This document shows positions 15,722-49,280 of a stretch of 64,000 nucleotides of DNA, one piece after another; position 1 is the first letter of the stretch; every line of letters begins with the position of its first letter. A program made the translations under genes and the position numbers. The DNA comes from Uloborus plumipes (Eukaryota > Arthropoda > Arachnida > Araneae > Uloboridae), in the NCBI GenBank assembly GCA_038373865.1, contig JAXGGA010000465.1, positions 62,001 through 126,000 on the forward strand, written 5' to 3'. Under the pieces are notes generated by a model. The model did not search any database and was not told where the DNA came from. It saw only the letters and a program-made list of their open reading frames with translations.

Positions 15722-15734
15722 ACACTATCATCTA
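15722..15734 (+). repeat. 13-bp target-site duplication, left
   Basis: ACACTATCATCTA immediately precedes the 3' end of the leftward Penelope-like copy. The identical 13-mer lies at 20320-20332, right after the 3' tail of the rightward copy. A perfect direct repeat at the exact ends of the composite is the expected product of a staggered cut and repair. Confidence 0.75.
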
Positions 15735-15798
15735 TATTTGAAGTTAAAAATCAACGTAAATAAAGCACAAATAAGGTAGAAAGTACAGCAAATAGCTA

Positions 15799-15829
15799 TT
15801 TCAAGGCTACAATGGAGCCCCTTCATCAG
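15799..15829 (-). ncRNA. Hammerhead-ribozyme-like core in the Penelope 3' region (left arm)
   Basis: On the minus strand CTGATGA (15829-15823) is followed after 20 nt by GAAA (15802-15799). It is the mirror image of the motif at 20188-20218. See that entry for the fold and its weak point. Confidence 0.35.
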
Positions 15830-16056
15830 TGCAAGAAGCTCAGCAAACAACATGAAAGCTGTAAGAGAACTGAGCGCGAAGCACGTGTGCCCCGGTATTT
15901 ATAACAAATGGGCGAGTGCGCTTGAACTCACAACAAAGCGGGAAAACACCGACCAATCAGCGATCAGCGAAACGCCAGGAGAGCGAAGAAAAGGGGGGAA
16001 GGCGGCAAAGGAAAGTAGGGGCAAAAAAGCGCGGGAGAAAACACTAGAAGACGAAA

Positions 16057-18174
16057 TTATAAAAATTGCTTCCAGATGTCAGGGAAAAATGGAACACTGG
16101 AAAAATCATTCACCAGAGAATGGGAATTTTTCCAAATATGGTAAGCTTCCCAAAAATCGAGGTCATAAACTGACGAACATTTACAAATAATTCTAGCCGA
16201 AGAAAAATCAAAGCAGTGACCAGAAGTCCAACAATGCTGAGCAATGGAAGAGCGTGCTAGTTCTTTATGTTTAACATAATTTTGATGCTCTTTCAGACGG
16301 TGCTTAAGAGGCCGCTTAGTCTGGCCTACATAGCTAAGTCCGCATTTGCAAGAGATGCTATAAATGCCCCAGTTGCTTTGGCAATCAATGGGATGCTTTA
16401 AGTTTGTAAACTTGATTTTGTTCACAGGAGAGAAAGAAATATCGAAACCAAACTTTTTCAAAATATTTGCAACTTGATGACTTGCTTTTGGATAAAAAGG
16501 CAAAACAATGGTGTAACCAACCTTAGACTCGGAAACCTTGCTGGAATGAGAGGGCTTTATTAGCCTATTATATATAGAATCAATAATCTTGGGCGAGTAA
16601 CCCCGATCAAAAGCCACAGCTTTTAAATAAGAAAGCTCAGTATTTAAAGAACTGGATGAAGAACAGATATTCAAAGCACGAAACACAAAAGCCTTAAATG
16701 AGGCCAACTTTTGGTTTCGAGGATGAGAAGAGTAGTTGTGAGGAGGTAGTGTAACAGCAAAGGGCTTACGATACACTGAAGTCATAAAATCGTTATTACT
16801 TTTAGTAATCAAAACGTCCAAGAATGAAAGAGAACTTTCCATTTCCATTTCAATAGTGAATTGGATGCAAGGATCGATAGAATTAAGAGTGGAAAGTAAA
16901 AGCTCATTATTAACTTGGTTTTGGTCAAGCAAAACAAAGCAATCGTCAACATAACGAACATAGAACGGAAACTTTATGGTTTCAAAAAGTTTTACCTCAA
17001 AGTAGTGCATATAAATGTCACTTAGAATAGGGCTCAAAGGGTTACCCATCGCTAAACCTTCGGACATGCGATAGTAAACACCATCAAATACAAAAGTATT
17101 CTGCTCAAGACAAGCACGAGTAAGAGAAACAAGTTCATCAACCTCAAAACTAGAAAAATGATGTTCCTGGAGTCTCAATTTGAGACAATCCAGTGCTCCA
17201 ATAACAGGTACATTAGTGAAAAGTGATTTCACGTCAAAAGAAGCCATCGTTACGCCGTGAGGCTTAAAGCAACGTAACTTCTGAACAAAGTCAATGGAAT
17301 TTTTAACAGTGAAAGAATTGCTGGTCAAAAGAGGAGAAAAAATGGAAACTAAATGCTTAGCTAGTTTGTAAGAAGCCGTGCCAATGTTTGAAACAATTGG
17401 CCTAAGAGGAACGTTTGGTTTATGGACCTTTGGTAAAGCATAAAATCGGGCACAGTGTGCAACAGAAGGAATCAAACACCTTTTTGACGAATCACTCATG
17501 ATAGGAGAAGCCTTCACAATGTTTCTAATTAAGTTGACCTCTTTAGTACTAGGGTCTTTATGAAGTGTCACATATGGACCAACTTCAATTAAATCCTTAC
17601 ATTTATCCAAATATGAGCTTTTGTCCAGAATAACAACTTGACCTCCTTTGTCAGCCTTAGTGACTACTATATCAGGATCGGAGCATAAACCTTTTACCGA
17701 AAACTTAGCATGCTTGCTGAAAGTATTTGAAGTCAATTTAGCATTAAAATCTACAGTATTGGCAATGAGATGCCTAATAGAATCCTTTTGAGAAGCAGTA
17801 AGAGCACTAAATCTAAAGGCTTTCTCAATTGGAGCAACCAATTTGGGAAATGAAGGTTTTGAAGAAGAAGCAAAATTGTTATTCAGTTTGAGAGCATTGA
17901 GCTGATCCGAATTCAAGAGCTTAGAAGAAAGATTGAGGACCGCATTCTGATTCACCTTTGGTAAAACATCAGACGAATGATCCACATTATTAGCACAAAG
18001 ATATTTCCACTTTTTCTGAAGAGTAGTCCTATGTTTAAAAGTAGACTGAAGAACCCTATTCCAACTTTTCCTATCAACCGAATCAAAATCCAAGTCAGAA
18101 TTCGAAAGTTTTAGATGCAAAGTTTTAGATACGAATAACAATTTTGCTTCTTCTTCAAAACCTTCATTTCCCAA
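16057..18174 (-). CDS. Penelope-like reverse transcriptase with GIY-YIG endonuclease, leftward copy
   Basis: The frame is 705 codons. Residues 15-112 are the N-terminal part, including NLSSKLLNSDQLNALKL. The Penelope-typical DKG motif (ADKGGQVVILD) is near residues 174-183. The RT catalytic regions follow: FDVKSLFTNVP with Asp314, GLAMGNPLSPILSD around 373-386, and YVDD at 408-411. The C-terminus carries a GIY-YIG domain: WGIYSIS near 602-608, SYVGQTKR near 614-621, R..H.KEH, and the late glutamate in FWEAYH near 676. No stop or frameshift interrupts it. The frame opens at a TTG, and residues 1-14 are antisense to the opposing copy. The first in-frame ATG is only near residue 226, so the native start has been lost by 5' truncation. 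Confidence 0.88.
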   Translation of the reverse strand: MGNEGFEEEAKLLFVSKTLHLKLSNSDLDFDSVDRKSWNRVLQSTFKHRTTLQKKWKYLCANNVDHSSDVLPKVNQNAVLNLSSKLLNSDQLNALKLNNNFASSSKPSFPKLVAPIEKAFRFSALTASQKDSIRHLIANTVDFNAKLTSNTFSKHAKFSVKGLCSDPDIVVTKADKGGQVVILDKSSYLDKCKDLIEVGPYVTLHKDPSTKEVNLIRNIVKASPIMSDSSKRCLIPSVAHCARFYALPKVHKPNVPLRPIVSNIGTASYKLAKHLVSIFSPLLTSNSFTVKNSIDFVQKLRCFKPHGVTMASFDVKSLFTNVPVIGALDCLKLRLQEHHFSSFEVDELVSLTRACLEQNTFVFDGVYYRMSEGLAMGNPLSPILSDIYMHYFEVKLFETIKFPFYVRYVDDCFVLLDQNQVNNELLLSTLNSIDPCIQFTIEMEMESSLSFLDVLITKSNNDFMTSVYRKPFAVTLPPHNYSSHPRNQKLASFKAFVFRALNICSSSSSLNTELSYLKAVAFDRGYSPKIIDSIYNRLIKPSHSSKVSESKVGYTIVLPFYPKASHQVANILKKFGFDISFSPVNKIKFTNLKHPIDCQSNWGIYSISCKCGLSYVGQTKRPLKHRLKEHQNYVKHKELARSSIAQHCWTSGHCFDFSSARIICKCSSVYDLDFWEAYHIWKNSHSLVNDFSSVPFFPDIWKQFL
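17885..18132 (-). other. Unpaired centre of the palindrome
   Basis: This 248-bp segment belongs only to the leftward copy and encodes its residues from about 15 to 97 (KTLHLKLSNS through DQLNALKL). At 18132/18133 it meets the truncated 5' end of the rightward copy. It marks how much further reverse transcription of the leftward cDNA went before the two were joined. Confidence 0.8.
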
Positions 18175-19960
18175 ATTGGTTGCTCCAATTGAGAAAGCCT
18201 TTAGATTTAGTGCTCTTACTGCTTCTCAAAAGGATTCTATTAGGCATCTCATTGCCAATACTGTAGATTTTAATGCTAAATTGACTTCAAATACTTTCAG
18301 CAAGCATGCTAAGTTTTCGGTAAAAGGTTTATGCTCCGATCCTGATATAGTAGTCACTAAGGCTGACAAAGGAGGTCAAGTTGTTATTCTGGACAAAAGC
18401 TCATATTTGGATAAATGTAAGGATTTAATTGAAGTTGGTCCATATGTGACACTTCATAAAGACCCTAGTACTAAAGAGGTCAACTTAATTAGAAACATTG
18501 TGAAGGCTTCTCCTATCATGAGTGATTCGTCAAAAAAGTGTTTGATTCCTTCTGTTGCACACTGTGCCCGATTTTATGCTTTACCAAAGGTCCATAAACC
18601 AAACGTTCCTCTTAGGCCAATTGTTTCAAACATTGGCACGGCTTCTTACAAACTAGCTAAGCATTTAGTTTCCATTTTTTCTCCTCTTTTGACCAGCAAT
18701 TCTTTCACTGTTAAAAATTCCATTGACTTTGTTCAGAAGTTACGTTGCTTTAAGCCTCACGGCGTAACGATGGCTTCTTTTGACGTGAAATCACTTTTCA
18801 CTAATGTACCTGTTATTGGAGCACTGGATTGTCTCAAATTGAGACTCCAGGAACATCATTTTTCTAGTTTTGAGGTTGATGAACTTGTTTCTCTTACTCG
18901 TGCTTGTCTTGATCAGAATACTTTTGTATTTGATGGTGTTTACTATCGCATGTCCGAAGGTTTAGCGATGGGTAACCCTTTGAGCCCTATTCTAAGTGAC
19001 ATTTATATGCACTACTTTGAGGTAAAACTTTTTGAAACCATAAAGTTTCCGTTCTATGTTCGTTATGTTGACGATTGCTTTGTTTTGCTTGACCAAAACC
19101 AAGTTAATAATGAGCTTTTACTTTCCACTCTTAATTCTATCGATCCTTGCATCCAATTCACTATTGAAATGGAAATGGAAAGTTCTCTTTCATTCTTGGA
19201 CGTTTTGATTACTAAAAGTAATAACGATTTTATGACTTCAGTGTATCGTAAGCCCTTTGCTGTTACACTACCTCCTCACAACTACTCTTCTCATCCTCGA
19301 AACCAAAAGTTGGCCTCATTTAAGGCTTTTGTGTTTCGTGCTTTGAATATCTGTTCTTCATCCAGTTCTTTAAATACTGAGCTTTCTTATTTAAAAGCTG
19401 TGGCTTTTGATCGGGGTTACTCGCCCAAGATTATTGATTCTATATATAATAGGCTAATAAAGCCCTCTCATTCCAGCAAGGTTTCCGAGTCTAAGGTTGG
19501 TTACACCATTGTTTTGCCTTTTTATCCAAAAGCAAGTCATCAAGTTGCAAATATTTTGAAAAAGTTTGGTTTCGATATTTCTTTCTCTCCTGTGAACAAA
19601 ATCAAGTTTACAAACTTAAAGCATCCCATTGATTGCCAAAGCAACTGGGGCATTTATAGCATCTCTTGCAAATGCGGACTTAGCTATGTAGGCCAGACTA
19701 AGCGGCCTCTTAAGCACCGTCTGAAAGAGCATCAAAATTATGTTAAACATAAAGAACTAGCACGCTCTTCCATTGCTCAGCATTGTTGGACTTCTGGTCA
19801 CTGCTTTGATTTTTCTTCGGCTAGAATTATTTGTAAATGTTCGTCAGTTTATGACCTCGATTTTTGGGAAGCTTACCATATTTGGAAAAATTCCCATTCT
19901 CTGGTGAATGATTTTTCCAGTGTTCCATTTTTCCCTGACATCTGGAAGCAATTTTTATAA
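18134..19960 (+). CDS. Penelope-like reverse transcriptase with GIY-YIG endonuclease, rightward copy
   Basis: Homology with the other copy begins at codon 18134 (NNNFASSSKPSFPKL), although a frame counted from a TTG starts at 18176 (594 aa). Counting from 18176: the DKG motif is at 64-66, the RT Asp is D203, MGNPLS is at 265-270, YVDD at 297-300, GIY at 492-494 and YVG at 504-506, with the endonuclease glutamate at about 565. Only a few residues differ from the leftward copy (for example K121 versus R, and D246 versus E). All key catalytic residues are present and there is no internal stop. About 97 N-terminal residues, plus the start region, are missing compared with the longer copy, so it is a 5'-truncated copy whose domains look intact. 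Confidence 0.88.
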   Translation, partial: NNNFASSSKPSFPKLVAPIEKAFRFSALTASQKDSIRHLIANTVDFNAKLTSNTFSKHAKFSVKGLCSDPDIVVTKADKGGQVVILDKSSYLDKCKDLIEVGPYVTLHKDPSTKEVNLIRNIVKASPIMSDSSKKCLIPSVAHCARFYALPKVHKPNVPLRPIVSNIGTASYKLAKHLVSIFSPLLTSNSFTVKNSIDFVQKLRCFKPHGVTMASFDVKSLFTNVPVIGALDCLKLRLQEHHFSSFEVDELVSLTRACLDQNTFVFDGVYYRMSEGLAMGNPLSPILSDIYMHYFEVKLFETIKFPFYVRYVDDCFVLLDQNQVNNELLLSTLNSIDPCIQFTIEMEMESSLSFLDVLITKSNNDFMTSVYRKPFAVTLPPHNYSSHPRNQKLASFKAFVFRALNICSSSSSLNTELSYLKAVAFDRGYSPKIIDSIYNRLIKPSHSSKVSESKVGYTIVLPFYPKASHQVANILKKFGFDISFSPVNKIKFTNLKHPIDCQSNWGIYSISCKCGLSYVGQTKRPLKHRLKEHQNYVKHKELARSSIAQHCWTSGHCFDFSSARIICKCSSVYDLDFWEAYHIWKNSHSLVNDFSSVPFFPDIWKQFL

Positions 19961-20187
19961 TTTCGTCTTCTAGTGTTTTCTCCCGCGCTTTTTTGCCCCT
20001 ACTTTCCTTTGCCGCCTTCCCCCCTTTTCTTCGCTCTCCTGGCGTTTCGCTGATCGCTGATTGGTCGGTGTTTTCCCGCTTTGTTGTGAGTTCAAGCGCA
20101 CTCGCCCATTTGTTATAAATACCGAGGCACACGTGCTTCGCGCTCAGTTCTCTTACAGCTTTCATGTTGTTTGCTGAGCTTCTTGCA

Positions 20188-20234
20188 CTGATGAAGGGGC
20201 TCCATTGTAGCCTTGAAATAGCTATTTGCTGTAC
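20188..20234 (+). ncRNA. Hammerhead-ribozyme-like core in the Penelope 3' region (right arm)
   Basis: CTGATGA (20188-20194) is followed by a possible short stem II (AAGG/CCTT) and GAAA (20215-20218). Next comes a possible stem III (TAGC paired with GCTG around TATTT, with one G-U pair) and a GTA cleavage triplet ending at 20233. Penelope-like elements are known to carry hammerhead motifs (work of Cervera and de la Peña). Against this, I cannot close a convincing stem I around the motif, and stem II has a bulge. It is therefore a candidate only, possibly decayed or requiring a tandem context. Confidence 0.4.
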
Positions 20235-20285
20235 TTTCTACCTTATTTGTGCTTTATTTACGTTGATTTTTAACTTCAAATATAG

Positions 20286-20319
20286 TTCAGCACAAAGCCT
20301 ATTTGATCATTTTTCATTT
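20286..20319 (+). other. Extra 3' tail of the rightward Penelope copy
   Basis: Thirty-four bases beyond the last paired position lead directly into the 13-bp target duplication. The leftward copy lacks this tail and meets its duplication at once. The two copies therefore have different 3' ends, consistent with independent priming at each side. Confidence 0.6.
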
Positions 20320-20332
20320 ACACTATCATCTA
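20320..20332 (+). repeat. 13-bp target-site duplication, right
   Basis: Identical to 15722-15734 (ACACTATCATCTA) and directly adjoining the 3' tail of the rightward copy. Confidence 0.75.
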
Positions 20333-27498: not shown

Positions 27499-27610
27499 TT
27501 TCGTTCGGATTGCCTCGCAATCTGAACTCGGAATACGCGTTCACTACATACTATATCAATAAATTTAAAACTATATTTTGATGCATATTTGATAGAAGTA
27601 GTTAACTATG

Positions 27611-27615
<5 letters not shown>
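27499..27615 (+). repeat. 117-bp direct repeat, left copy
   Basis: By eye it is identical to 29021-29137 over all 117 bases (starts TTTCGTTCGGATTGCC, ends AACTATGGGACA). The two copies lie on either side of the Tc1-like transposon. The left one leads straight into (TA)n, the right one into ordinary sequence. Confidence 0.85.

Positions 27616-27691
<76 letters not shown>
27615..27691. repeat. (TA)n microsatellite hosting the Tc1 insertion
   Basis: About 38 TA units end exactly at the left terminus of the Tc1-like element; a short TA run continues after its right terminus. Tc1/mariner elements insert at TA, so this tract is the target. Confidence 0.9.
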
Positions 27692-29020: not shown

Positions 29021-29137
29021 TTTCGTTCGGATTGCCTCGCAATCTGAACTCGGAATACGCGTTCACTACATACTATATCAATAAATTTAAAACTATATTT
29101 TGATGCATATTTGATAGAAGTAGTTAACTATGGGACA
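29021..29137 (+). repeat. 117-bp direct repeat, right copy
   Basis: Identical partner of 27499-27615, offset 1522 bp. The sequence between the two copies is TA tract, Tc1 element, and about 110 bp of other sequence. Confidence 0.85.
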
Positions 29138-32100
29138 GATATATTTTTTTAATGTTATTATTTATTTAAATTTTAAGAAAAACAAGATCACATTTTCAGC
29201 CTCTGCGGCATCGTTTAAAATTGTGGGAATGAGCTAATTTTTTCTGGTGTTAGTTTTAGAGCAGATGTGTAAAAAAATGAAGGGGTATGACTTAAGAAAA
29301 AATAAAGTTGAAAAAACAGGAGAACTCTAATACGTGCATATATATACACACACAGAGGGAAGGATAGATGACGAAAATTAATGCGTACGTTATGTTTATT
29401 ATTATTAACATGTGCAAAAAATAAAAATACTGATATAAAGTAACTTATGAAGTCTTTGTTCGTCATCACTTCAAAGCACTGTTACGTTACAACACCTCAT
29501 CAATCACTTTTGACATCGCAATAGATTAAATATTTCAAAGAGTAATTCTTCACAGTTGCCTCATTCTATACATTATTAAAAGAAAATTAAGCCATTATGT
29601 GTTTTTTTTTTCAAACCTTGTATCGTATTATTTATTTACTTGAAAGGAATTAATCATTCTTCAGAGCATAAATAAAAAACAGTGAAAAGCTTTCTAAATT
29701 AATATGTAATTAGTAATTACATATGAGGGATCCTTAATGTTATTTTGCAGGAAACGCAGATTATATTTTAATTAAAAATTGGCTTGTATTTAATTTAAGG
29801 ACTGAATACACGTATTCAATGCAATACTTAGTAAAGAACTTCATCATTGCATGTTTTATGAACTTTTACATTAAAACAGATTCTTATTCAGAAAAATATG
29901 CATCTTTAAAACTAATATATTTTTGATTACATTGAAAATTTTAAAATGACTTATGGACTGCTTTGCTGCAGTCTTATTTATTCAATTTTCCAATAAACAA
30001 AAAGCATTAATCTCAAATTCCTGTTTCAGAACACAGCAGAAAATTTTCATGCAAAGAAAGGGAACTACTAATTAATATTCATTTACACAATAATTCATTA
30101 ACTTTTTCTCTTACACATTTTTTAGTAAATTTGATTGCCTTAAATGACACGAAGCTACTTGAACAACTAATTCAGCGAATAAGTACAGTGGTACCCATCT
30201 GGAAAAGACTCATTGTCTTCTTACGTCCAAGTTTGTGAGTTTTTCAAGATTTAAAAAGTCATAAACTAACTTGTCGTTTCCCTTATTACAATACTAATGC
30301 TTCGTGGAATGTTTGTCTTCGATATTCTTGGTAAAAGCTCAGCTCACATCTTCAGAGTCCTCTTGCCTCCAGCTGAAAGGAAATTTGGAGTCAAAACTCT
30401 GAAGAGGTATTAAAATCCGCCAATTGAATTGCCAACAGAAAATGTGGTTGTCGTCCCTGTCCGATGCATTATATCTGCAAGTGAATAAGACCCGAATACG
30501 CTGCAAAATCAAAAACAACAATATTTAAATTATTGTAACATCTGCCGTAAAAGAATGCTCAACTGTTTACAAATATGACTAACGTCGTATAAAAAAATGA
30601 TGTTCACAAAAAGCAATAGAACAATGGTTTGTTTGATAATAAAACAGGACATCCAAAAGATTGAAAGCATACCATTCATGCTATGATAAATACTTTATTA
30701 GATGCATTGCGCTATTGATTTATTTGACACCCCAAAAAGCTAGAGGTTCAGTTTTGCTCAGGTAATATTTAAGTCCGACGGATAAAAGACTCAACCATTC
30801 CATTAATCAATGTGAGTGAAAATGATGCCTCTTTGCTTTACCAGTAACTTTTTTAGATATTTACAAAAAATCTGCGAAATTCTGCTGAAATGAAAATTAT
30901 CTTTCTTTTCATGAAAATGAATTCGTCTAAGAACAGATGTCTTGTTATCCAAACCTTACTGCATATTTAGACGTAAAGCATGTCAAACATCAGTTATCGA
31001 TATTTTCTGTTACCTGAAATCGCACTTATATTGGCTATGTGAAGCTATTCACATTTTGTAATTGCGCAAAAATATTTGCAGCACATGATTGAAATTTTTG
31101 CAGTGTTCAGCTATTTATATGATGCATGTTCATCATGTCTGATTAAAAATATTAATGCAACTCAAATCAAATAATGCATAAAAGTGAGAGTGAAAAATGT
31201 ATATGGACGTAAAATTCTGTGGAGACTTCTCATTTTAAGTACTTTTGACAAATTAAAAATGAAGTAAGTATAAAGAAACCCCCAAGACATTTTCATATGT
31301 GTGGAAGAAGAAAAATTATGCAACATTTGTGAGTGTAAGTAATAGTGTGATTTTAAGTATTCATGGTATTTCTGGGCATTAAATAAAACTAAAAATTAAA
31401 TCTAAAATAAAAATGCGCTTGAGTTCTATTTTTATTGCATATCTTAAAACTTTAAAGTGAGCTTACTAATGTTTGACATAATTATAAAAAGTCCAACAGC
31501 TATTATAAAGCTAGCGTTACTTATGGCATTAACTCGTTTTAAAGAACAAAGTATTAATTCTTTTAAATTAAATATTTTATCTGCAGCAAGTTAACTGAAA
31601 TACTTTGCGACGTTTTCGAAATGTAAAAATATCTTTTAGTTTTATGTTTTCTTTGCATTTTTATAGGAGGAAGTTGAATTTCAAGTTTTTTCTCCTGTGA
31701 ATTAACAAAAAAGATGTTTTCCTTTTCCTGAATAATAAGAGGGTAAAAAATGCTTTAACTATGTCGTGGGTGTGCACAGAAAATAAAATAGTAGAACGCT
31801 TTTTCAATTCCAAACTTAAAGGTTAGGATTTTGTTTCTTTCAAAACTCGATGCTTAAACGTTTTTATAAATCAATGTTATTTTTAATCGACTTTTACACG
31901 AGATCTTTGGTATTAAAATTGGTTCTGTATATAGTATACAAAAGGTTGCAGAATACATTTGTTTCGCTGCAGTTTTCTAGCAAATAAATGAGTAAGCATA
32001 TTGAATATTTAACAATATACGTTTTTCTGTTCTAGTACATGACACATGAATAAAAAAATCACTTCATCAACGAACCATTAGCTTCTTTCAAAATAAAATA

Positions 32101-37860: not shown

Positions 37861-40340
37861 TCGCTGCATTATATGCATAAGCGAAAACAATTAAAATTGT
37901 AATCAAAACGAAAAATAAGAATAAAAACAGAAAAAAGTTCTATTAAAACATGCAAACAGGACCGTCATTTCTAATTTTTTCCAGGGGGGAGGGGCAAATG
38001 ATGTATACACAATGTAAATTTACCGAAAATTGGCAAAAACGACTCCTACTTACATGTAAATAGATTGATTTCCCAAATTCAGGGGGGGGGAATTGACCCC
38101 CCCCCCCTGAACCCCGAAATGACGGGCCTGCATGCGAACGAGTAGACAAAATGTTCAAAAAAAAAAACAACTGCATAATTTTTAAATATAGATCTTATTA
38201 AAGATATTAAGCTTTGCATGCTTATAATGAGCTTTATTTTAATTTTTTCTATGGGCTAACTTCGTAGCAATCAGTTTGAGAAAAGTTTTCACTTAAAATA
38301 TATTTGTGTTATGCATGTTGCTAAGTTTACACTAAAAAATCAAACGCGCAAAGACACTAATATGAAAAAATAAAAAATAAGAAGAGAGAGAGAGACATCA
38401 CTTTATCCTACAAGGACTTCAATATCAACTGAAGATCAATTCAGTTGTAAACAACTGTCTGAGTAGCAGAGGTAATGAACATGATGGGCGCTCGACACGT
38501 AATCAATAACTCGAGTTTTAGACTTCTTTACTCTTTCAGGGCAGAACATCTGTATCTTTTTTATTTGAATGAATGACGAAACTTGCAGACATTCTCAAGT
38601 ATTTTCTGCTCACTCTATGCTAAAGAGATTTAGCTTACAGTGTTACTTAAGGAAGACGTTTTTCTTGTGACCTAAGGAAAGAAAAGTACTTTTGGCCGTT
38701 TCAAGAAAGTCTTTTAACGTCTCGTTGTCTAGAGACAGTGTTAGAATTGTAGCAGTGCTTTAATTATTCATGTATAGTAAAAATATGTGTCTGCAAATTA
38801 CTTCTTTTAAATGACTACAATTTGTAAACATAGCGCATATATTTACTTTAACGTCTAGGAAATGTTAAGTGGTTTCTTAGTTCTTAAATTTAAGCTAACC
38901 AAAATAAGAAAAGTGCAGTAGGAAAAATTTCAAAATGTGCGTTAAGATGTTTGTCTCAACTACTTGTATGCAAGTTTTAACTGGGTTGAGTTAACGCGCA
39001 AATTAATCCCATAATAGTTAACTATTATGTACATATTCGTAATTAGTAAAGTATTTCTTAATGACAGCCTATAAATTTTAAATATATTATTGTTATCGTT
39101 TCTTTGTTTCGTCAAAAACTTTGGTTTAAACTATTTCTCTAAGTGTAAAAAAATGTGCATTTTTATGCTATTTTTCATATTGAAGGTGTATTAGAAAAAT
39201 GATGAGGCATTGTTTTTTTTTTCAGTAAACGTTTTTATTTGTTTTAAACAGCAAAATTGTTCCTTTCAAAGAAGTTCCCATCGGCATCTGTACACCGGCA
39301 GGATATTTGTTTCATTCTTGGTACCACCGCTATAAGGCTTCAGTTCTTAGGGCCTTCAATACGTTAGTCATTTTTGTTGAACATTATCAGGAGTCTCAAA
39401 ATGTTGTCTTTAAAAGAAACATTAAAAACTCATTTTACATCAAAAATAATTTAAGAAAAGTTCTAATTTTTGCCTCACAACGGTGTGTTATAAAACCTAA
39501 ACCTAACATGTAATCTTAATTTAATAATCATGAAAATTGCACAACAATTGCGATCTTGATTTTTTTTTTTGTCATATATGCATCTTACACCCTGCTTGGA
39601 AATTGGATAGTAATAAATACCACCCGGCCTTGTTCTCTCGTATAGTTTAACCTCCCCCCCCCCCCCCACAAAAAAGTCAATACTTACACCAAACTGTAAA
39701 TCAATCCACAAGTACAATGACTATGCTGAATGATGTTCCTGCATCAGTTTTAACTGCCTGGTATTAATTTTAACCATGCAGCATATTAGCCCGTACATTT
39801 GAGAAAATGAGCTCAAATTTTAACAAAAAATCAAGCATCAAAATCAATCAAATTTGAGCATCGCATAGTTGACTTCAGTAAACTTCTATTTCTTTAGGAT
39901 GACAACTCTTGAAATTATTAGCCAAACAACTGTTCATTTTTTTCTTTAAAAAATTTCGAAACAAAAAAAAGCACGAATATTTTAATTCAATTCACAAATA
40001 TTATACATATCCATCCTTTACCCAAAATAAACGTTGCTGAAATGAAATAAAAGCGCAAAATGGAAATGGAACTAGGTTCACTAGGTTCAAAAATGGAACT
40101 AGGTTCACTTGCAGGTTGCATCGCGTTATTGTCCTCTGAAGCACGTGATAGACTCTTTGGATTTTCTTGCTACAGATCTACTGCACATTGCAGCTTAGCA
40201 TTGTTAAACTACGAATGTTCGTACAAGTAACACTTCTGCTTGTTACATAAATGACATTTTAATAAGAAAAAAAAAATTCTCCATAAATTCACATAAGAAT
40301 AACCTTTTTTTACAAAATAGATTATTATTTGGTAAAAAAC
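37861..40340. other. AT-rich DNA with G/C homopolymer patches
   Basis: The patch at about 37964-38130 (GGGGGG, CCCCCCCCCC, GAAATGACGGGCCTGC) resembles 45658-45705 (GACCCCCCATAAATGACACG) and may be two fragments of one repeat. A second C-run lies at 39654-39667. A short tandem GGAACTAGGTTCACT duplication occurs at about 40065-40110. No gene is seen. Confidence 0.35.
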
Positions 40341-40710
40341 GGTTATTTCCATCCATGGACTGCATGGAACTGCAGTCCATGGATCGAAATAACCGAGTTG
40401 GCGGTGTATTGCATGTTTTTGCCTTAGCCCCTGCTTAGGGGCGATTACTCACTGCTTTATCCCCGAGATCTGTCTTCAAATTTACGAGTTGTACAGTACC
40501 AAATGCAGTCGCTCGCTGGTATTCTAATTTCACATTAGCTACCAGTTTGTTGGCTCTTTTTGCTCTATAAGAGGATGTTTGCCTCCAACTCGGGTATTTT
40601 CCTGTTACATGCTGATGAATGCATAATAAGCACGAAACTGCAGTCCATCGATGGAAATAATCGAGTTGGCGGTGTATTGTTTGTTCCTGCCTTAACCCTT
40701 TTTCACGATT
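40341..40710 (+). mobile_element. Retrozyme-like repeat, locus A (tandem, head-to-head start)
   Basis: One full 268-bp unit runs from just after GTC at 40377 to GTC at 40645, followed by about 60 bp of the next unit. Both unit starts share AACTGCAGTCCAT and then CGAGTTGGCGGTGTATTG. At the left border 40341-40364 is an almost perfect inverted copy of 40371-40394, so the locus begins with a short antisense fragment joined head to head. The unit is non-coding and its border is a hammerhead cleavage site. That is the layout of retrozymes, small non-autonomous retroelements copied through circular RNA. Confidence 0.7.
40598..40657 (+). ncRNA. Type I hammerhead ribozyme, locus A
   Basis: The core is complete: CTGATGA (40612-40618), GAAA (40634-40637) and cleavage triplet GTC (40643-40645). 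Stem III is 2 bp (AC with GT) closed by TGCA. Stem II pairs TGC with GCA, with an A-C mismatch at its base. Stem I has CAT/ATG next to the core and TTTCC/GGAAA beyond an internal loop. Short stem III and a long looped stem I are typical of natural type I hammerheads in animal genomes. Confidence 0.7.
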
Positions 40711-41369
40711 GTGATTCTATAAAGATCCCATTATTTGATTGTGAATTTTAAGAAAGGATCCTTCATGGAACATAGCAAGGACCTTTTGGGGCATTCCTTG
40801 CTCTTTTGCATAGGCACGCTCTTTTGAAAATATTATCGAACCTGAAGCCTTTTCGTTTTATAGTCAGGACTACATCAACATATGTGACATTTCTCAAGAA
40901 CTGTTTACCACAGATTTTATCTACTTTACTACTTGCGTAGTATATAGTGTAATGCAATTGAAAAAGTATATAAATAAATTTATATATTTATCGATTTATA
41001 TTTCATAAAGCTTGGTAATAATTTAATACAACATGTTATAACCTACATTTAAAAATATCCAATCGTGAAAAATACAAGATAGTTATGTTATGTTTATACT
41101 AAAAATGGAAAACAAAAGTTTACAACCCATAATTACACAAACATATACTTTAGAAAAAAGGTTTGTACATTTATCTAAGCGAAATTCAAACACTTTTTTG
41201 AAGAAGGTTTACCTTTAATGTTGCTATGGAAATTTAATGCAGAAAAAAAATATGGATTTTAATAAGGGTAAAACATTTTAATCCTTCTTGATTACAGATA
41301 GAAGGATAAAAACTATAGAATAAACTGCCCAGGTAAAAAAAAATACAGCAATTATAGGAACCTATACCA
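40711..41369. other. Featureless AT-rich DNA
   Basis: Nothing recognised between the retrozyme locus and the piggyBac-type MITE. Confidence 0.5.
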
Positions 41370-41373
41370 TTAA

Positions 41374-41810
41374 CCCGTGAGCACTCGCACGGGGCCTCTC
41401 AGGCCCGGCCATTATTTAAATTCGCATCGCCAAAAATCACCCCTTCAGCGGAAATGAACGAGGTTCACAGTAGCTGCGTTCAGGGTCACCTTCTTACTGA
41501 CCACATGTTTTTCAGGAATGTACAGACCCTCTTTCCCCCTAAAAATACCGGTTGGGGCCTCAGAGGCCCGGCGCAAGTGCTCGCGTTTTTCATTCTGCAT
41601 TGAGAACGCGAAGAAAGAGGTTGCAAAATGCTTCGCAATTTGAGTTATAAAGATGAAATGAAGAGGTTGCAGACTTTGTGATTAAAATTTAGTGTTCAAA
41701 ACACAATTTTTTTCTGCTTTACAAACTCAATTTCCTGAAAAAACCGCTCCGGGCCTGCAAGGCCCGGCGCGAGTGCTCGTGTGACGCAAAGTAGCGCGAG
41801 TGATCGCGGG
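41374..41810. mobile_element. piggyBac-type MITE with internal GGGCCT/AGGCCC hairpins
   Basis: TTAA stands at both borders (41370-41373 and 41811-41814), the target duplication of piggyBac elements. The ends read CCCGTGAGCACTCGC (left) and CCCGCGATCACTCGC (right, opposite strand), 13 of 15 matching and starting with the CCC expected for this superfamily. Three internal copies of a GGGCCTNNNNAGGCCCGG palindrome lie at about 41393, 41555 and 41752, two followed by a GCGC(A/G)AGTGCTCG block that resembles the terminus. At 437 bp with no frame, it is non-autonomous. Confidence 0.75.
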
Positions 41811-41814
41811 TTAA

Positions 41815-43672
41815 CGAAAACCATTCATAAAGGACCCCCATCTTGCAACTATATTGACAATTTCTGGTTATGGTGGTAGTAAAGAAAATGTAATCAGTAA
41901 CAGAAGCAGGTATTTTTAAATTCAAAAATCAAAATGCACCTATAATATTTTTTGCACCTCGAAAACTATAGAAAATTCCAAAATGTCTTTCACTTGAAAT
42001 TTTATGAAAAGGATTTCAATTAAAATAGGTATAAAAGAAAAAACTGATCCATGCCAATACCTATCTGTAGTGCGTGCGACAAAAAGTGATAAAAATGATA
42101 TGCACGTAAGTGATATTTCTCGCATTTAAACGGCCTGTGGGTGTAGCACTGAATCATTTACGTGGATGTAGTTACGATAATACCTTGGTAGCTCAGTACT
42201 TTTCCATTCTCGCTTACTGTTGCATGCCAACAAAAATCCATTAATGCTGCCTTAATAGCCCAGTAAAGATTCATTAGCTTTCGGGTGGCATCATTAACCC
42301 ATCAATAAATACTACCTGATAGCAAAAGTTACAGATAAAATTAAGGTTACACAGAGACATAAGGTAATTTAGAGATATTTGAGGTAGATTAAGACTGTTG
42401 CAAATATTTATTAATAGAAGACAAAACATGTTTAGGCATAATGAAAAGTCGAAGTAAAAGAGAGGGGATATTAACGGCTGAACTATGCTTTGTTAGTATA
42501 ATTTTAATGTATCGACGTTTTTATCTTTTATATGCATTGTATCGAGTTACATCCAACTAAGAGTGTGTTTTTACAGAAACAGTCTCAGACGAAACTTTAC
42601 CAGTTCGTGTTTTCTGCCGTACAAAGAGAGAAAAAAAAAATCTGGACTTTTAGGGCTTTAGTTTTTTTTTTCGTTAGATTTTGCCTGTATAAATTTGTGA
42701 AAAATATGAGATATAGTGATTGTTTGTGACATTCTAATTATAATTTAACACAACAGAAAATGATGTTAATATGACTTAAAAGGATATAAACTCTAAAACC
42801 TCAAATGCAAAGTTTTATTGGAAGTGTGCAATATGATCAAGTAAAAACATGTTTGAAAAAAAAAAGAAAAATACCTTATTTCACTCCATAATCAATAAGT
42901 GTGAAAAATATAACTATGATTCAAACACACATGTTGCAATTTACAAGCACTAACGTAACGACATGCATAAAATATTACTTGAAATTTGAATTCAATTTTC
43001 GACATCTACTCAAAAGACAAACGTATAACAAGTATTTGAATTTTGTACTGATTTCAACCATTCGTACTGTAACATTTCTACTCTGCTATTATTGTGGTAC
43101 TGTTTACATTTCAAATTATTTATTAGCTGTTATCACGTTGATAAATAGTGAAATTACTGGCAATAAATATGAAAAAGAATATCAATATCGTTGTGCTTGA
43201 AAAGTTAAAGCAAATTAAACAACGTTAAAAACTAAAGTGACTATAAAAATTGCAGACACGTGTTTTGGCGTTACAAGGAATGCCGTTTTCAAAGCAAAAC
43301 GTTGAACTTATAGATGAAAAGTCATCCAACAAAAAGGTCTGCAAGTTAGTTTTTTACGTTGTTTTATTCGATTTTATGCTAATAATGTGACTGATAATAA
43401 CAAAAGTACAATCATAAGTAAGGGTGAAAAAAAAAAATAAGTTAGAGCAAATAAAACGCAATGCAACTGGAAAGAAAGCAAAGCAACAAATATCGTCGAC
43501 TGAAGTGAAAAAGATTAAAAACGTATAAAAACTGAGTGACTCAGATGAAATATGAATAATGGAAACATATCGGACATGTAGAATGAAAGAAGCACTTCTA
43601 TGATCATAATGTATGTGATAAGTTTGGATAAGAGAGTATAACAGAGCTGAAGGCAAAAATCATCTTTTTGAA
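41815..43672. other. AT-rich DNA; possible dispersed-repeat fragment near 43.26 kb
   Basis: The segment 43257-43305 resembles 26820-26890 (ACACGTGTTT, GTTACAAGGA, CGTTTTCA). No gene is recognised in the rest. The 99-aa frame at 42901-43200 shows no motif. Confidence 0.35.
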
Positions 43673-44020
43673 GCTAAGAGTGCTGAAAACAAATTTGTAG
43701 CTAAATTAAAATTAGCGCACCAGCGAGAGACCGCAGCAAAAGTATGGTTCAACGAGTACATTGAAGGCAAATCTTGGGTATTAAGCAGTAAGCTGCAGTA
43801 TCAAAGCCAGAGATAAGGCAGAATTTACGTAAGCTACCAGTTTGTTTGGCACTCTTAGCTTCTTTAAAATGATTTCCGCCTCCAGCTCAGTTACTGTCCA
43901 ATCCTGACTGATGACTCTTAATGCGGACGAAACTGCAGTCTTTGGATACTATGACAAGGGATAAAGGTGAATTGCTTCTAGTTTTGTGTCTGTCCTGACT
44001 TTGGAACGGTGACTTACTGC
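43673..44020. mobile_element. Retrozyme-like repeat, locus B (two halves head to head)
   Basis: Positions 43673-43835 read as the middle of the unit on the minus strand (TGCGGTCTCTCGCTGGTGCG, AGCTACAAATTTGTTTTC). Positions from about 43836 to 44020 read as the second half plus the next unit start on the plus strand (AGCTACCAGTTTGTTTGGCA, then the hammerhead). The two pieces point away from a junction near 43835. It is the same family as loci A and C. Confidence 0.65.
43890..43955 (+). ncRNA. Type I hammerhead ribozyme, locus B
   Basis: The core elements CTGATGA (43908-43914), GAAA (43929-43932) and GTC (43938-43940) are all intact. Stem III is again AC/GT with a TGCA loop. Stem II is CTCTTAATGCGGAC, with only two or three pairs. 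Stem I next to the core is weak (TG-A pairs, then ATCC with GGAT further out). The core could be active, but the arms are partly decayed. Confidence 0.6.
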
Positions 44021-44585
44021 TTAATGATGCATTGTTTGTGATCGAACCTTGTTTTTATTTTTTTTTATACGTACAAAAATTGGTAAGCTTTTATTTCTTT
44101 CTTTTTGCATTTCCTTGAGAACTTTTTTAAAAGGCTGAAATAAGAGTGACGCAAAAAAAAAAGGTGAAACTGCGCACGAAATAAAATTTTCAAAAATAAA
44201 CGCATCCAATAATAAGAGATAAAGCTCCATAGTTCTCTCATAATTTATGGCTGGGAAAGAAGGAGGCATTCCGACCTCTCACTATTTCTTTCGCCTTTCA
44301 TCCATTCCATCAATCAAAGATTGGAGATTGGCTATCAGGAAGAATGCTCAGAAAACAAACAAAAAATGTTAAAAGAAAAGAACTTTGAAAGTAATAAATA
44401 TGCAAGTAGTATTTCACACACTGGCGCAGAATTTTCAAAATTCACAACCACGTTAATGTGCAGTAATTTAAAAAAAAAATGTAAGTAAGATTGAAAAAAA
44501 AATCTACAAATCAGCCTTTTCTCGCATTTGCAAAACCGCCCTTTTGAGAAAAAATACTGTCGTATAAATTACCGAGTTACTACCC
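44021..44585. other. Featureless AT-rich DNA between retrozyme loci B and C
   Basis: Poly-T and poly-A runs only. The 82-aa minus frame at 44021-44269 shows no motif. Confidence 0.5.
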
Positions 44586-44639
44586 CTATAATCCAGGGCT
44601 AAGGCAGAACTGCATGCAATACACCGCCTGCTCGGTTAT

Positions 44640-44700
44640 GCCACCCAATGACCTCGGTTTCGATCTCGTGAGGGCTCATCAGTTTGGATTAGACACTAAA
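44640..44700 (-). ncRNA. Type I hammerhead ribozyme, locus C minus copy
   Basis: On the minus strand: CTGATGA (44682-44676), GAAA (44661-44658) and GTC (44652-44650). Stem III is AC/GT closed by CGAG. Stem I pairs TCCAAA with TTGGGT outside an A-A mismatch. Stem II has only a few pairs. The conserved core is complete. Confidence 0.6.
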
Positions 44701-45077
44701 CGAGCTGAGGACAGAAAATATTTAATATAAGTTAAGAGTACTTAGCAAACTGGTAGCTAAAATAAAATTAGCACACTAGCGAGAGATTGAAGCAATGGTG
44801 CGGTTCAAGTCAAAACTTAAAGGCAAAGCTAGAAGCAGAATCAGTAAAGACAGTCTTTGGATTACATAACCGAGAAGGCGGTGTATTGTATTTAGTTCTG
44901 ATTTAGTTCTGACTTAGGAGGGATAGCTTACTGCTCCATACCCTATTCTTACTTTCAATTTACGAGTTGAGCTATACCATTACTGCGGTCTCTCGCAGGT
45001 ATGCTATTTTTTTCTTTATGTACAAGTTTGTTTAACCCTATTAGTTTTTGTAAGATGCTTTAGCTCAGTTACTGCAT

Positions 45078-45130
45078 AATCCAGACTAATGTGTCTTAAT
45101 AAGGAATAAACTGCAATCTCGGGATGGCGT
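45078..45130 (+). ncRNA. Decayed hammerhead, locus C plus copy
   Basis: The positions of the core are clear, but CTGATGA reads CTAATGT (45086-45092) and GAAA reads TAAA (45107-45110). The cleavage triplet is ATC (45116-45118). Stem I still pairs well (AATCC.GA with TC.GGATG). Core changes at invariant positions should abolish cleavage. Confidence 0.6.
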
Positions 45131-45170
45131 AACTAAGCTGGTGGTGTATAGCATTTTTGCATATTTATGG

Positions 45171-46633
45171 CTTTCAAAAACTTTTTATAGATTTCAACCA
45201 CACCGGGTATGATGAAAAATACTATTCCAATTTAAAATTTTGTTTTAAATGTATGCTCCCTAAGCAAAACACAAATTATTTAAAGTAATGGTTTATGTAA
45301 TCAAAGGAAAAATTATTTTCATTTTAGAATGTACCTAAAATCTCTAGCGGAGTATTGAGCAATCATAGATTCGAGTTAAATATATCAGGCTGCTTTTGTA
45401 GTGCTGCAGGGATAACATTATTGCGGAAATATGAAGAAAAAAAAATCACATTTTAAAATCAACTCTTTTCGTCACTTTCTCTGTATTTGGGAAAGAAAAA
45501 ATCAAATTATTTACATAAATTCAGTTTTTCTTTTGCTTGAGAACAGATTTCTGCACATAACCATTGTAAAGTGTGTTATGTAGCCGTGTAACCAGAATAC
45601 GAAATATCTTTGGGAAAAAAATGTTAGGCATTATTGGGTTAATAAAATTAATAATAATGCCCCACCCCCACTCTTGACCCCCCATAAATGACACGCCTGT
45701 ATCTATTCTCAGAAGTCAAAAGGTATGAATTGATTTTTTTTTGAACATATGATTCATTTTTTTTAATGTTAAAAATCGCTATTTTTACGTTTTATAAATA
45801 TTACTATCACTATTTACTTTTTTTTTACCAAGCAATATATTTAATATTTTATTATATTTAATTATTTCTGAGTAAACTTTCTACTTTATAACAATTTTTT
45901 TAATGATTTTGTTGCGTACCGCGATTTAACTTTTATAGTGATTCGATTTATTAGAGTCTCCTTAGTATAATATTACGTTAATTACTTTAGCTTAAAAGTA
46001 GTATTTTGTAAGCTGAATAAGGATTTATCCTGAAATTAATGCAAAACTTTGACTTTAAGAACACGGAATGATCATCCGACAGCATGGACATTTGAAGATA
46101 CTCAAAGTGAAATGTAGCCTTAGGAGAAGCTGTTACTGAGAAGAAAAGCAGATTAGTTGTTTTTAACTACCGAGGTTTAACTACAGAGATAAAAATTAAA
46201 TTTACATTATGAAAAGAACATTATGCAAGCTGTAAATTAAATAGATAAAAACTTACATCAAATAATTAATTCTACTTTTATACAGATTTTTTTTCTTAAT
46301 TTAGTAGAAATTATAAAAGAAATTAAGTTTAAATGGTCTGGATACAAAAGAATAATTTCAAGAAAATATGAAAGTAATTATTTCATATAAGGGAACTCTT
46401 GCGGGAAATTAATGGTGTGTAAATTAACTGTCACTCACTTACTAGTTAAGAATGTAAATGCTGATTATTTTTTCCTGTGTTTTGACTTAACGACTTTTAA
46501 TTTTACTAGTTACTATTTTTTACGACTAAGACTCCTTTCACTCCTTCTTTTTTGGTTCCTTTTCTTTGAAAAATAAACTATTTTTCATAACAAATCAAAA
46601 AAATATTTCCTAAGGACATCAAATTTGTATTAT
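45171..46633. other. AT-rich DNA without recognised features
   Basis: A short C/G-rich patch at 45658-45705 resembles 37964-38130. Nothing else is supportable. Confidence 0.45.
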
Positions 46634-47001: not shown

Positions 47002-48621
47002 ACAATACAGCGCACAACCAGTTTTTTTTTTCCATCAAGTTTCCAAGACTTTTAGGAAGTCTTTCTTTGTTTTCAACCATTCCATTTCTCTATAGCACAA
47101 CTGCGTTCATATAAAGCTATCTCTCTTGACCCAACCACACACTGATTCAGCAGCCCCCGTCACTAATCTCACTGCTCTCCTCACAACTTTGTGTATGTAA
47201 TGAATATGGAGGAATTTCCAGTGGGGTGATATTCAGTTCTTTAAGTTGTACCAAAGACAAATTTTCTGTGAAAATTGGTTCAGTGAGGATCTCTGCGTCT
47301 CAGGGGATCAGTTCCCTGTGGTCACAATACTGCGCACAACCACTAGTTTTTTTTTCCATCAAGTTTCGAAGACTTTTAGGAAGTCTTTGTTTGTTTCCAA
47401 CCATTCCATTTCTCTATTGCGCAACTGCGTTAGTTTTAAGCCATCTCTCTTGACCCAACCACACACTGATTCAGCAGCCCCTGTCACTAATCTCGCCGCT
47501 CTCCTCACAACTTTGTGTATGTAATGAATATGGAGGAATTTCCAGTGGGGTGATATTCAGTTCTTTAAGTTGTACCAAAGACAAATTTTCTGTGAAAATT
47601 GGTTCAGTGAGGATCTCTGCGTCTCAGGGGATCAGTTCCCTGTGGTCACAATACTGCGCACAACCACTAGTTTTTTTTTCCATCAAGTTTCGAAGACTTT
47701 TAGGAAGTCTTTGTTTGTTTCCAACCATTCCATTTCTCTATTGCGCAACTGCGTTAGTTTTAAGCCATCTCTCTTGACCCAACCACACACTGATTCAGCA
47801 GCCCCTGTCACTAATCTCGCCGCTCTCCTCACAACTTTGTGTATGTAATGAATATGGAGGAATTTCCAGTGGGGTGATATTCAGTTCTTTAAGTTGTACC
47901 AAAGACAAATTTTCTGTGAAAATTGGTTCAGTGAGGATCTCTGCGTCTCAGGGGATCAGTTCCCTGTGGTCACAATACTGCGCACAACCACTAGTTTTTT
48001 TTTCCATCAAGTTTCGAAGACTTTTAGGAAGTCTTTGTTTGTTTCCAACCATTCCATTTCTCTATTGCGCAACTGCGTTAGTTTTAAGCCATCTCTCTTG
48101 ACCCAACCACACACTGATTCAGCAGCCCCTGTCACTAATCTCGCCGCTCTCCTCACAACTTTGTGTATGTAATGAATATGGAGGAATTTCCAGTGGGGTG
48201 ATATTCAGTTCTTTAAGTTGTACCAAAGTCAAATTTTCTGTGAAAATCGGTTCAGTGAGGATCTCTGCGTCCTAGGGGATCAGCTCCCTGGGGTCACAAT
48301 ACTACTCACAACCACTGATTTTTTTTTCCATCAAGTTTCGAAGACTTTTAGGTAGTCTTTGTTTGTTTTCAACCATTCCATTTCTCTATTGCGCAACTGC
48401 GTTAGTTTTAAGCCATCTCTCTTGACCCAACCACACACTGATTCAGCAGCCCCTGTCACTAATTTCACCGCTCTCCTCGTAACTTTGTGTATGTAATGAA
48501 TATGGAGGAATTTCCAGTGGGATGATATTCAGTTCTTTAAGTTGTACCAAAGACAAATTTTCTGTGAAAATTGGTTCAGTGAGGATCTCTGCGTCCTAGT
48601 GGATCAGTTCCTTGAGGTCAC
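47002..48621 (-). repeat. Five 324-bp tandem units made from a decayed coding block
   Basis: Unit starts are 47002, 47326, 47650, 47974 and 48298. The middle three units are nearly identical, while the outer two differ at many positions, the usual result of unequal crossing over. On the minus strand each unit encodes EPIFTENLSLVQLKELNITP and then IPPYSLHTQ. After a frame change it continues VVRRAARLVTGAAESVCGWV and NREMEWLETNKDF before a stop. This is the C-terminal block of the unnamed family seen in 48625-50558. The plus-strand frames of 75 and 92 aa repeated in these units are antisense by-products. Confidence 0.85.
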
Positions 48622-49280
48622 AATCATTGAAATTCACTGACTGCGGAACTGTAAAAGATCATAATAAAGTACATCCAAAGTCATTTTCAACCCTTATTGA
48701 TATTATTTTGTCAACTGAAAGGCTCTTTTACTTGTCCTTAGACCCGAGAAGCGCAATGGGTGTATTTTCTGGAGCTATCGAGGAGTTTTTAGGCAAAATG
48801 CATCATGCCTCCTTTCCAGCCTAACATATCATTGGTGGTATCACTTCCAATTATTTGAAGGCTAATATCTATACCTCTGTCCTTTAACCAGTCATTTAAT
48901 CTTATTGCACATTGCTCAGCCGTTTTTGCCATTGTTGTTTTCTCTTCTGGTGTACAGTGAGTGAGGTAGCGACCTCTGGGCTCTTCTGTCACTCTCATAT
49001 GACTTTCTTTAATGATGCTCTTCTGAAAGCTACCAGTGTTCTCATCGTGCCTTATAATTAAAGTGTTATCCTTCCTGCATCGACAAAAATACGAGTAATG
49101 TTACTTTTTGCGATATTGGGACACTCTTCTGCTCTTGAGTGCTTCATAACACGCTCTTTGGCACGAAACACCTTTTTGGTATCGCATATGAGATGTTTTC
49201 TATCTTCATCGATATGGCTTGCCTTCACAAAATCACCCAAAAGACCATTGATGATAGCTGTGGCGGTTAAACCCAAACCT
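48622..49280 (-). pseudogene. Decayed middle region of an unnamed invertebrate repeat-gene family
   Basis: Minus-strand blocks in order are: NGLLGDFVKASHIDEDRKHL and FRAKERVMKHSRAEE (49276-49058), RVTEEPRGRYLTHCTPEEK with AIRLNDWLKDRGIDISLQII and DTTNDMLGWKGGMMHF (48998-48789), then SVDKIISIRVENDFGCTLL and NFNDCDLKELI (about 48730-48625). A frameshift separates the first two blocks, and stops follow GGMMHFA. Compared with homologues that I remember from invertebrates, the part between the GGMM block and the VDKII block is missing. The function of the family is unknown to me, but its repeat character suggests mobile-element origin. Confidence 0.6.

Follow-up and report, generated by a model that had tools for sequence, protein, structure and literature searches.

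Penelope-like elements (PLEs) have been a strong candidate since 2020 for the machinery that copies animal retrozymes into chromosomes (PMC7229834). The question is raised here by three loci, called A, B and C, in a 64,000-nucleotide stretch of the genome of the spider Uloborus plumipes (contig JAXGGA010000465.1, positions 62,001 to 126,000; hereafter the window). An original prediction, made from the letters alone, had placed at these loci a non-coding repeat of retrozyme type delimited by hammerhead ribozymes. The 270-bp family to which they belong is a non-coding metazoan retrozyme with a canonical type I hammerhead, as predicted, but its insertions end at two internal points, here called S and L, and not at the hammerhead cleavage sites. 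These insertion marks point to a Penelope-type enzyme as the copier of animal retrozymes, and the insertions probably arose when a circular or multimeric retrozyme RNA was copied by target-primed reverse transcription of the PLE type, primed on two sides. The insertions themselves bear a mark tied in vitro to a PLE enzyme (PMC11167929), and they record how two-sided priming may be completed. An abundant retrozyme family and an apparently recent PLE, nearly identical in its copies, lie about 20 kb apart in the window, so the pair is directly testable.

The retrozyme family and its ribozyme

A search of the genome (1.42 Gb in 25,906 contigs) showed the family to be abundant, with 3,351 first-look candidates; the 40 that were scored gave 80 matches, one at 74% identity and the others higher. 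The main sample consists of 36 stretches fetched around the best genome matches, and a consensus of 270 nt was built from 85 full-length copies. The end and beginning of the consensus together form a type I hammerhead, in which stem I has an internal loop, stem II is GTGC/GCAC with a 7-nt loop, and stem III has two pairs and a TGCA loop; the folding z-score of this part of the consensus is -5.3. The GC content is 0.452 for the consensus and 0.437 for the unit in the window. Arms range from 0.1 to more than 3 units, and there are long tandem arrays as well (L009, L015, L037 and L041, of which the first three extend past the fetched stretch), giving dimer-to-multimer copies. No open frame of at least 120 amino acids was found at 40-45.5 kb, and the 270-bp unit encodes no protein and hence is not itself a PLE.

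The ribozyme is genuine, because its core is conserved and its stems covary. The exact core is kept in 64 of 104 full-length hammerheads from the fetched loci and the window. The prediction also stands the conservation test that had been set for it beforehand: the core scores 0.981 and the remainder of the unit 0.938, which places the core fifth among 238 slid positions. In an alignment of 76 copies, which also served for the family model (75 from loci, with a maximum of four per locus, and one from window locus B), 48 cells differ at both partners of a base pair, where shuffles give 15.7 (0 of 500). One measure of covariation fails to separate the structure from its neighbours, since pairs slid by -1 give 11 pairs with two-sided changes against 9 in the structure, but the same slide gives only 16 two-sided-change cells against the 48. 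When 28 older loci were searched with the family model, every one was hit, and the matches at E up to 0.01 numbered 49.

With the Rfam models the hammerhead reaches sub-threshold scores at most. No hammerhead was reported at gathering scores in the window or in nine fetched loci, nor at E up to 5 in 40200-45300. Among ten related loci chosen by hand, the best match to RF00163 (Hammerhead_1) reached 29.5 bits (E 0.0017), under the 34-bit cut-off, and the family model matches loci A and C. It also matches locus B, at E 2.8e-06, where the copy is itself part of the model alignment. MicroRNA-like Rfam matches in 40.2-45.3 kb were rejected as the locus A hairpin and chance.

The pattern CTGATGA..GAAAC..GTH has three matches in the window (0.05 expected; 0 of 100 shuffles reach three). 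The features of the three loci are as follows, with unit positions counted along the consensus.

40340..40364, minus strand: foldback arm of locus A, unit about 264 to 18, an inverted repeat with 25-nt arms that are 96% complementary
40362..40700, plus strand: plus arm of the retrozyme at locus A, unit about 255 through 270/1 to 55
40378-40645, plus strand: 268-bp unit of locus A, within the plus arm
40589..40665, plus strand: type I hammerhead of locus A, core intact (40612-40645), family model E 3.6e-19
43592..43821, minus strand: minus arm of locus B, about 70% identical to the family consensus
43822..44025, plus strand: plus arm of locus B, 3' end at L (unit 83)
43886..43959, plus strand: hammerhead of locus B, core intact (43908-43940)
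44562..44830, minus strand: minus arm of locus C, outer 3' end at L (unit 85); 44543-44845 by other aligners
44631..44704, minus strand: hammerhead of locus C, core intact (44650-44682), family model E 3.3e-07
44851..45157, plus strand: plus arm of locus C, outer 3' end at S (unit 40)
45064..45137, plus strand: degenerate hammerhead of locus C, family model E 1.1e-07

The predicted repeat is thus real, as a 268-bp unit at locus A with diverged relatives at loci B and C, and three hammerheads with intact cores are present as predicted, beside a fourth that is degenerate. The layout was wrong in that one of the intact cores lies on the minus strand. Nor is the unit delimited by cleavage sites: locus A is alone in covering two cleavage positions, and there a foldback hairpin (40338-40397) has replaced the upstream hammerhead, which is destroyed. 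At loci B and C the copies form inverted pairs arranged head to head.

Insertion ends and orientation

Block maps against the consensus show that in many loci a minus arm precedes a plus arm, the 3' end of each facing out. Genome-wide, the outer ends are not the predicted cleavage sites: S lies about 37 nt past the cleavage site, directly after GGTGTATTGCAT, and L about 84 nt past it, directly after CTCACTGCTTTAT, so that the spacing, or tail, is about 47 nt. Ends at unit 29-48 were classed as S and ends at unit 80-91 as L, a fixed rule applied to a main set of the 36 loci minus L028, which has the same flanks as L012, and to an older set of 29 loci minus the overlapping L074. Opposite-strand junctions in the main set are head-to-head in 26 cases and tail-to-tail in none; in the older set the numbers are 14 and 1, or 40 to 1 across both sets. 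The main-set junctions comprise 16 S/L, 2 L/L and 0 S/S (one-sided p 0.0007 against an even mix), S/L therefore accounting for 16 of the 18 with both ends classifiable. The fixed rule alone, on which all counts are based, makes L020 L/L and leaves L041 unscored; reading by hand would put L020, the second L021 pair, L033 and L041 in the S/L class.

Where the inner ends meet there is microhomology of 0-4 nt or a gap of 1-37 nt. Outside locus A, L029 and L014 the inner breakpoints are mostly far apart, with a mean circular distance of 57.6 nt against 67.5 if they were unrelated, by an informal comparison. As a separate observation, inner ends of the complementary DNA (cDNA) are enriched in the hammerhead core (unit 237-270; 14 of 48, p 0.002, in a segment picked after looking and with L028, L043 and L044 excluded), as though reverse transcription were halted by the folded ribozyme. 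Five loci (L044, L043, L030, L010 and L014) are complex or atypical, in that one end lies at neither S nor L or an extra inverted piece is present. L012 and L028 have identical insertion flanks on contigs C23137 and C9687 and slightly different units, and are probably two haplotypes.

Target duplications and variants shared between arms

An exact flanking repeat of at least 10 bp is present in 9 of 26 end pairs, compared with 1 of 650 mismatched controls in equal windows; at a length of at least 7 bp the numbers are 14 of 26 and 71 of 650.

The arms of a locus also resemble each other in the template variants they carry. At eight polymorphic sites, agreement is 100 of 120 within an arm, 132 of 164 between the arms of a locus, and 6,734 of 12,615 between loci, and the two arms thus resemble each other in template about as closely as consecutive units within a single arm do. 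When minus arms were reassigned among the 19 two-armed loci, the observed agreement was reached in 0 of 1,000 permutations. Left out beforehand were L009, L010, L015, L037 and L041 (arrays), L043 and L044 (complex), and L028 (flanks of L012); without those exclusions, the fraction of shared variants is 0.368 within an arm, 0.120 between arms and 0.030 between loci. Sharing of rare variants is uninformative (17 of 289 between arms and 14 of 202 within arms). The shared variants fit a single RNA circle, or a single clonal multimer, as the template of both arms, but do not prove it, because variants could also track insertion age.

The Penelope-like element

A PLE with the same anatomy as the retrozyme insertions (head-to-head arms, two 3' ends, a target duplication and a hammerhead) lies in the same window.

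15722..15734, no strand: left target duplication ACACTATCATCTA, 13 bp
15735..18132, minus strand: minus arm, its outer 3' end the short end (S)
18133..20319, plus strand: plus arm, with reverse transcriptase by Pfam and a GIY-YIG-like motif by eye, its outer 3' end the long end (L)
20188..20226, plus strand: minimal hammerhead in the 3' region, with a mirror copy at 15791-15829 on the minus strand; weak alone, as two matches also occur in 5 of 100 shuffles
20283..20319, plus strand: one-sided 37-nt tail, missing from the other side
20320..20332, no strand: right target duplication ACACTATCATCTA, an exact 13-bp copy of the left

The inverted, head-to-head arms (15735-20319) are 99.86% identical across 2,153 bp. 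In the protein, RVT_1 is above the cut-off; GIY-YIG was not called by Pfam at 1e-3, a similar motif being visible by eye only. The protein has 1400 homologues, many with RVT_1 and PF26215 and some with PF01541, which we take to be the GIY-YIG domain. Its nearest named relatives are from the spiders Uloborus diversus (84% identity over 74% of the query, and 88% over 55%) and Parasteatoda tepidariorum (62% over 55%), in keeping with a spider genome. The 40 scored genome matches to the PLE 3' end are all 98-100% identical, and this degree of identity suggests that the family has recently been active. Six further copies that were fetched are all head-to-head with two alternative 3' ends: five are S/L with duplications of 11-13 bp, and L047 is L/L without a clear duplication. 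Another copy, L081, has two L ends, a 6-bp repeat and a partial tandem; L082 shares its left flank, as L012 and L028 do theirs, and was left uncounted. All fetched PLE copies were picked through an L end.

How the insertions may have been made

The covarying hammerhead, the head-to-head anatomy, the S and L ends, the target duplications, the variants common to both arms and a young PLE of like build are all observed; from them we infer that the template was circular, that a PLE protein was the enzyme, and that priming on two sides was the order of events. Two-sided target-primed reverse transcription of the PLE type, acting on circular or multimeric retrozyme RNA, is the probable origin of the insertions. 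Retrozyme copies would be transcribed, the hammerhead would free monomers, and these would be ligated into circles, as in published work on other animals. A Penelope-type reverse transcriptase-endonuclease would then cut both target strands about 8 to 14 bp apart, and both DNA 3' ends would prime inside the RNA, typically one at S (nucleotide ~37) and the other at L (nucleotide ~84). The cDNAs would traverse the cleavage site, often lapping the unit more than once, after which their far ends would be joined head to head and gap repair would leave the target duplication.

Several results weigh against this account. Exact repeats are shorter than 10 bp at 17 of the 26 loci in the duplication test, 8 of the 26 main-set junctions have an end outside S and L, and 7 of the 36 loci are without a long inverted arm (L018, L027, L029, L031, L034, L036 and L042), L029 having a short foldback instead. 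Junctions in the older set comprise 5 S/L, 0 L/L, 2 S/S and 7 with an unclassified end (p 0.23, not significant); these ends are difficult to place because identity is only about 70%. Circularity of the RNA is deduced from copies that cross the cleavage site; such copies would equally be made from a linear multimer. Independent PLE copies are 6 S/L and 2 L/L (2 of 8 L/L), and no one-of-each rule is established for PLEs because the fetched copies were selected through the L end. No sequence similarity between the 3' ends of the retrozyme and of the PLE was noticed by eye, and the PLE in the window therefore need not be the helper. Covariation support for a predicted S/L hairpin, described below, was looked for and none was found.

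That hairpin belongs to a narrower proposal, in which a single small RNA circle would serve the two DNA ends of a staggered break simultaneously. The predicted fold of the circle places S and L on opposite strands of one hairpin. A dimeric PLE enzyme might grip the hairpin of one circle, S being primed by one DNA end and L by the other; both polymerases would travel in the same direction without collision, each could lap, and the products would be joined head to head. If true, this would account for the pairing of one S with one L end in most classifiable insertions and for the matching variants of the arms. It is a tentative idea, to be doubted somewhat sooner than believed, and two-sided priming in general is put no higher than probable, since one-of-each pairing is shown neither by the older set nor by the PLE copies.

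Among other explanations, self-priming survives best, although it is unlikely as the origin of the family's insertions. Here the inverted arm is copied from a single cDNA whose 3' end has folded back, or from an antisense RNA acting as its own primer, as has been proposed for Penelope elements of Adineta (PMC3846280). Locus A, L029 and L014, with short arms and nearby inner breakpoints, have the appearance that it predicts, and for these three it is retained. As a general cause it was rejected for most pairs on the strength of their inner breakpoints, which are mostly far apart with the microhomology or gaps given above, and a snapback leaves unexplained why an inverted arm should end at S or L beside a target duplication.

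Two-sided priming by a PLE-type enzyme also has to be set against long interspersed nuclear elements (LINEs) or another reverse transcriptase as the agents that move retrozyme copies. LINEs and PLEs have both been named as possible retrozyme helpers (PMC7229834). The two internal starts, one-sided tail, head-to-head arms and duplications of 10-14 bp match PLE copies of the same genome, and they match published PLE features (PMC3846280, PMC11167929), which makes a LINE or other enzyme quite improbable.

Inverted arms flanked by duplications also recall a foldback DNA element similar to a miniature inverted-repeat transposable element, and the long tandem arrays (L009, L015, L037 and L041) recall a satellite, either of which might merely contain a hammerhead; inner breakpoints, arm lengths and phase differ among loci, the two outer ends are unlike, orientation is 40 to 1 head-to-head in the two sets together, and the ribozyme covaries, so that this origin is very hard to credit. 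Chance hammerhead-like motifs in an ordinary repeat, to which the want of an Rfam match at gathering scores in the window and nine loci might be ascribed, can practically be dismissed in view of the three cores against 0.05 expected, the core conservation, the covariation, the family-model matches and the sub-threshold RF00163 matches in related loci.

Comparison with published systems

The purified PLE protein of Anolis cleaves both DNA strands and extends them, with reverse transcription beginning at two neighbouring internal sites; the sequence between these corresponds to a genomic tail of 30-40 bp (PMC11167929). The start sites are apparently no different between strands, and that in vitro work of 2024 describes the completion of two-sided priming as still to be validated (PMC11167929). 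Penelope pseudo-LTRs (long terminal repeats) are described as head-to-head inverted, with an optional 31-bp tail on one and duplications of 8-10 bp, self-priming being favoured (PMC3846280). The present retrozyme shares with PLEs head-to-head arms, two 3' starts, a one-sided tail, target duplications and a type I hammerhead (PMC3846280, PMC11167929). PLEs differ in encoding a reverse transcriptase and GIY-YIG endonuclease, whereas the retrozyme encodes no protein, and tail lengths are about 47 nt for the retrozyme, 37 nt for the PLE of the window and 30-40 for published PLEs.

Metazoan non-LTR retrozymes share with this family a type I hammerhead, a short non-coding unit (there about 170-400 nt) without an open reading frame, tandem copies, and, where present, target duplications of more than 4 bp (PMC7229834). 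The 270-nt consensus lies within the size of about 150-450 bp expected for the class. The unit GC of 0.452 is at the upper edge of the range in that paper, which gives less than 45% in one place and less than 50% in another. The retrozymes described there are tandem repeats, the word "inverted" being absent from the main text, while those described here form head-to-head pairs and have two fixed internal 3' ends. The same paper (Cervera and de la Pena 2020, PMC7229834) put PLEs forward as a strong candidate mobiliser, citing co-occurrence, hammerheads in common and copies in tandem. Plant LTR retrozymes are likewise non-autonomous and hammerhead-processed with circular RNA as proposed template, but have type III hammerheads, LTR features, 4-bp duplications and a helper thought to be Ty3-Gypsy (PMC7229834, PMC7761336). 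The retrozyme class is thus already known and its mobilisation by PLEs was proposed in 2020, whereas the insertion anatomy was not found in print: an open-access search, with subscription journals mostly outside it, gave no recognised description of head-to-head retrozyme insertions or of paired ends.

Other features of the window

Between loci A and B, at 41378-41800, there are three copies of a short GC-rich repeat bearing a palindrome (GGGCCT..AGGCCCGG). An open frame of 352 amino acids at 27723-28781 on the minus strand, presumably resembling a Tc1/mariner-type transposase, is flanked by near-identical direct repeats of 124 bp (27499-27622 and 29021-29144). At 47002-48624 lies a tandem array that repeats about every 324 bp, its copies being 92-97% identical over aligned stretches.

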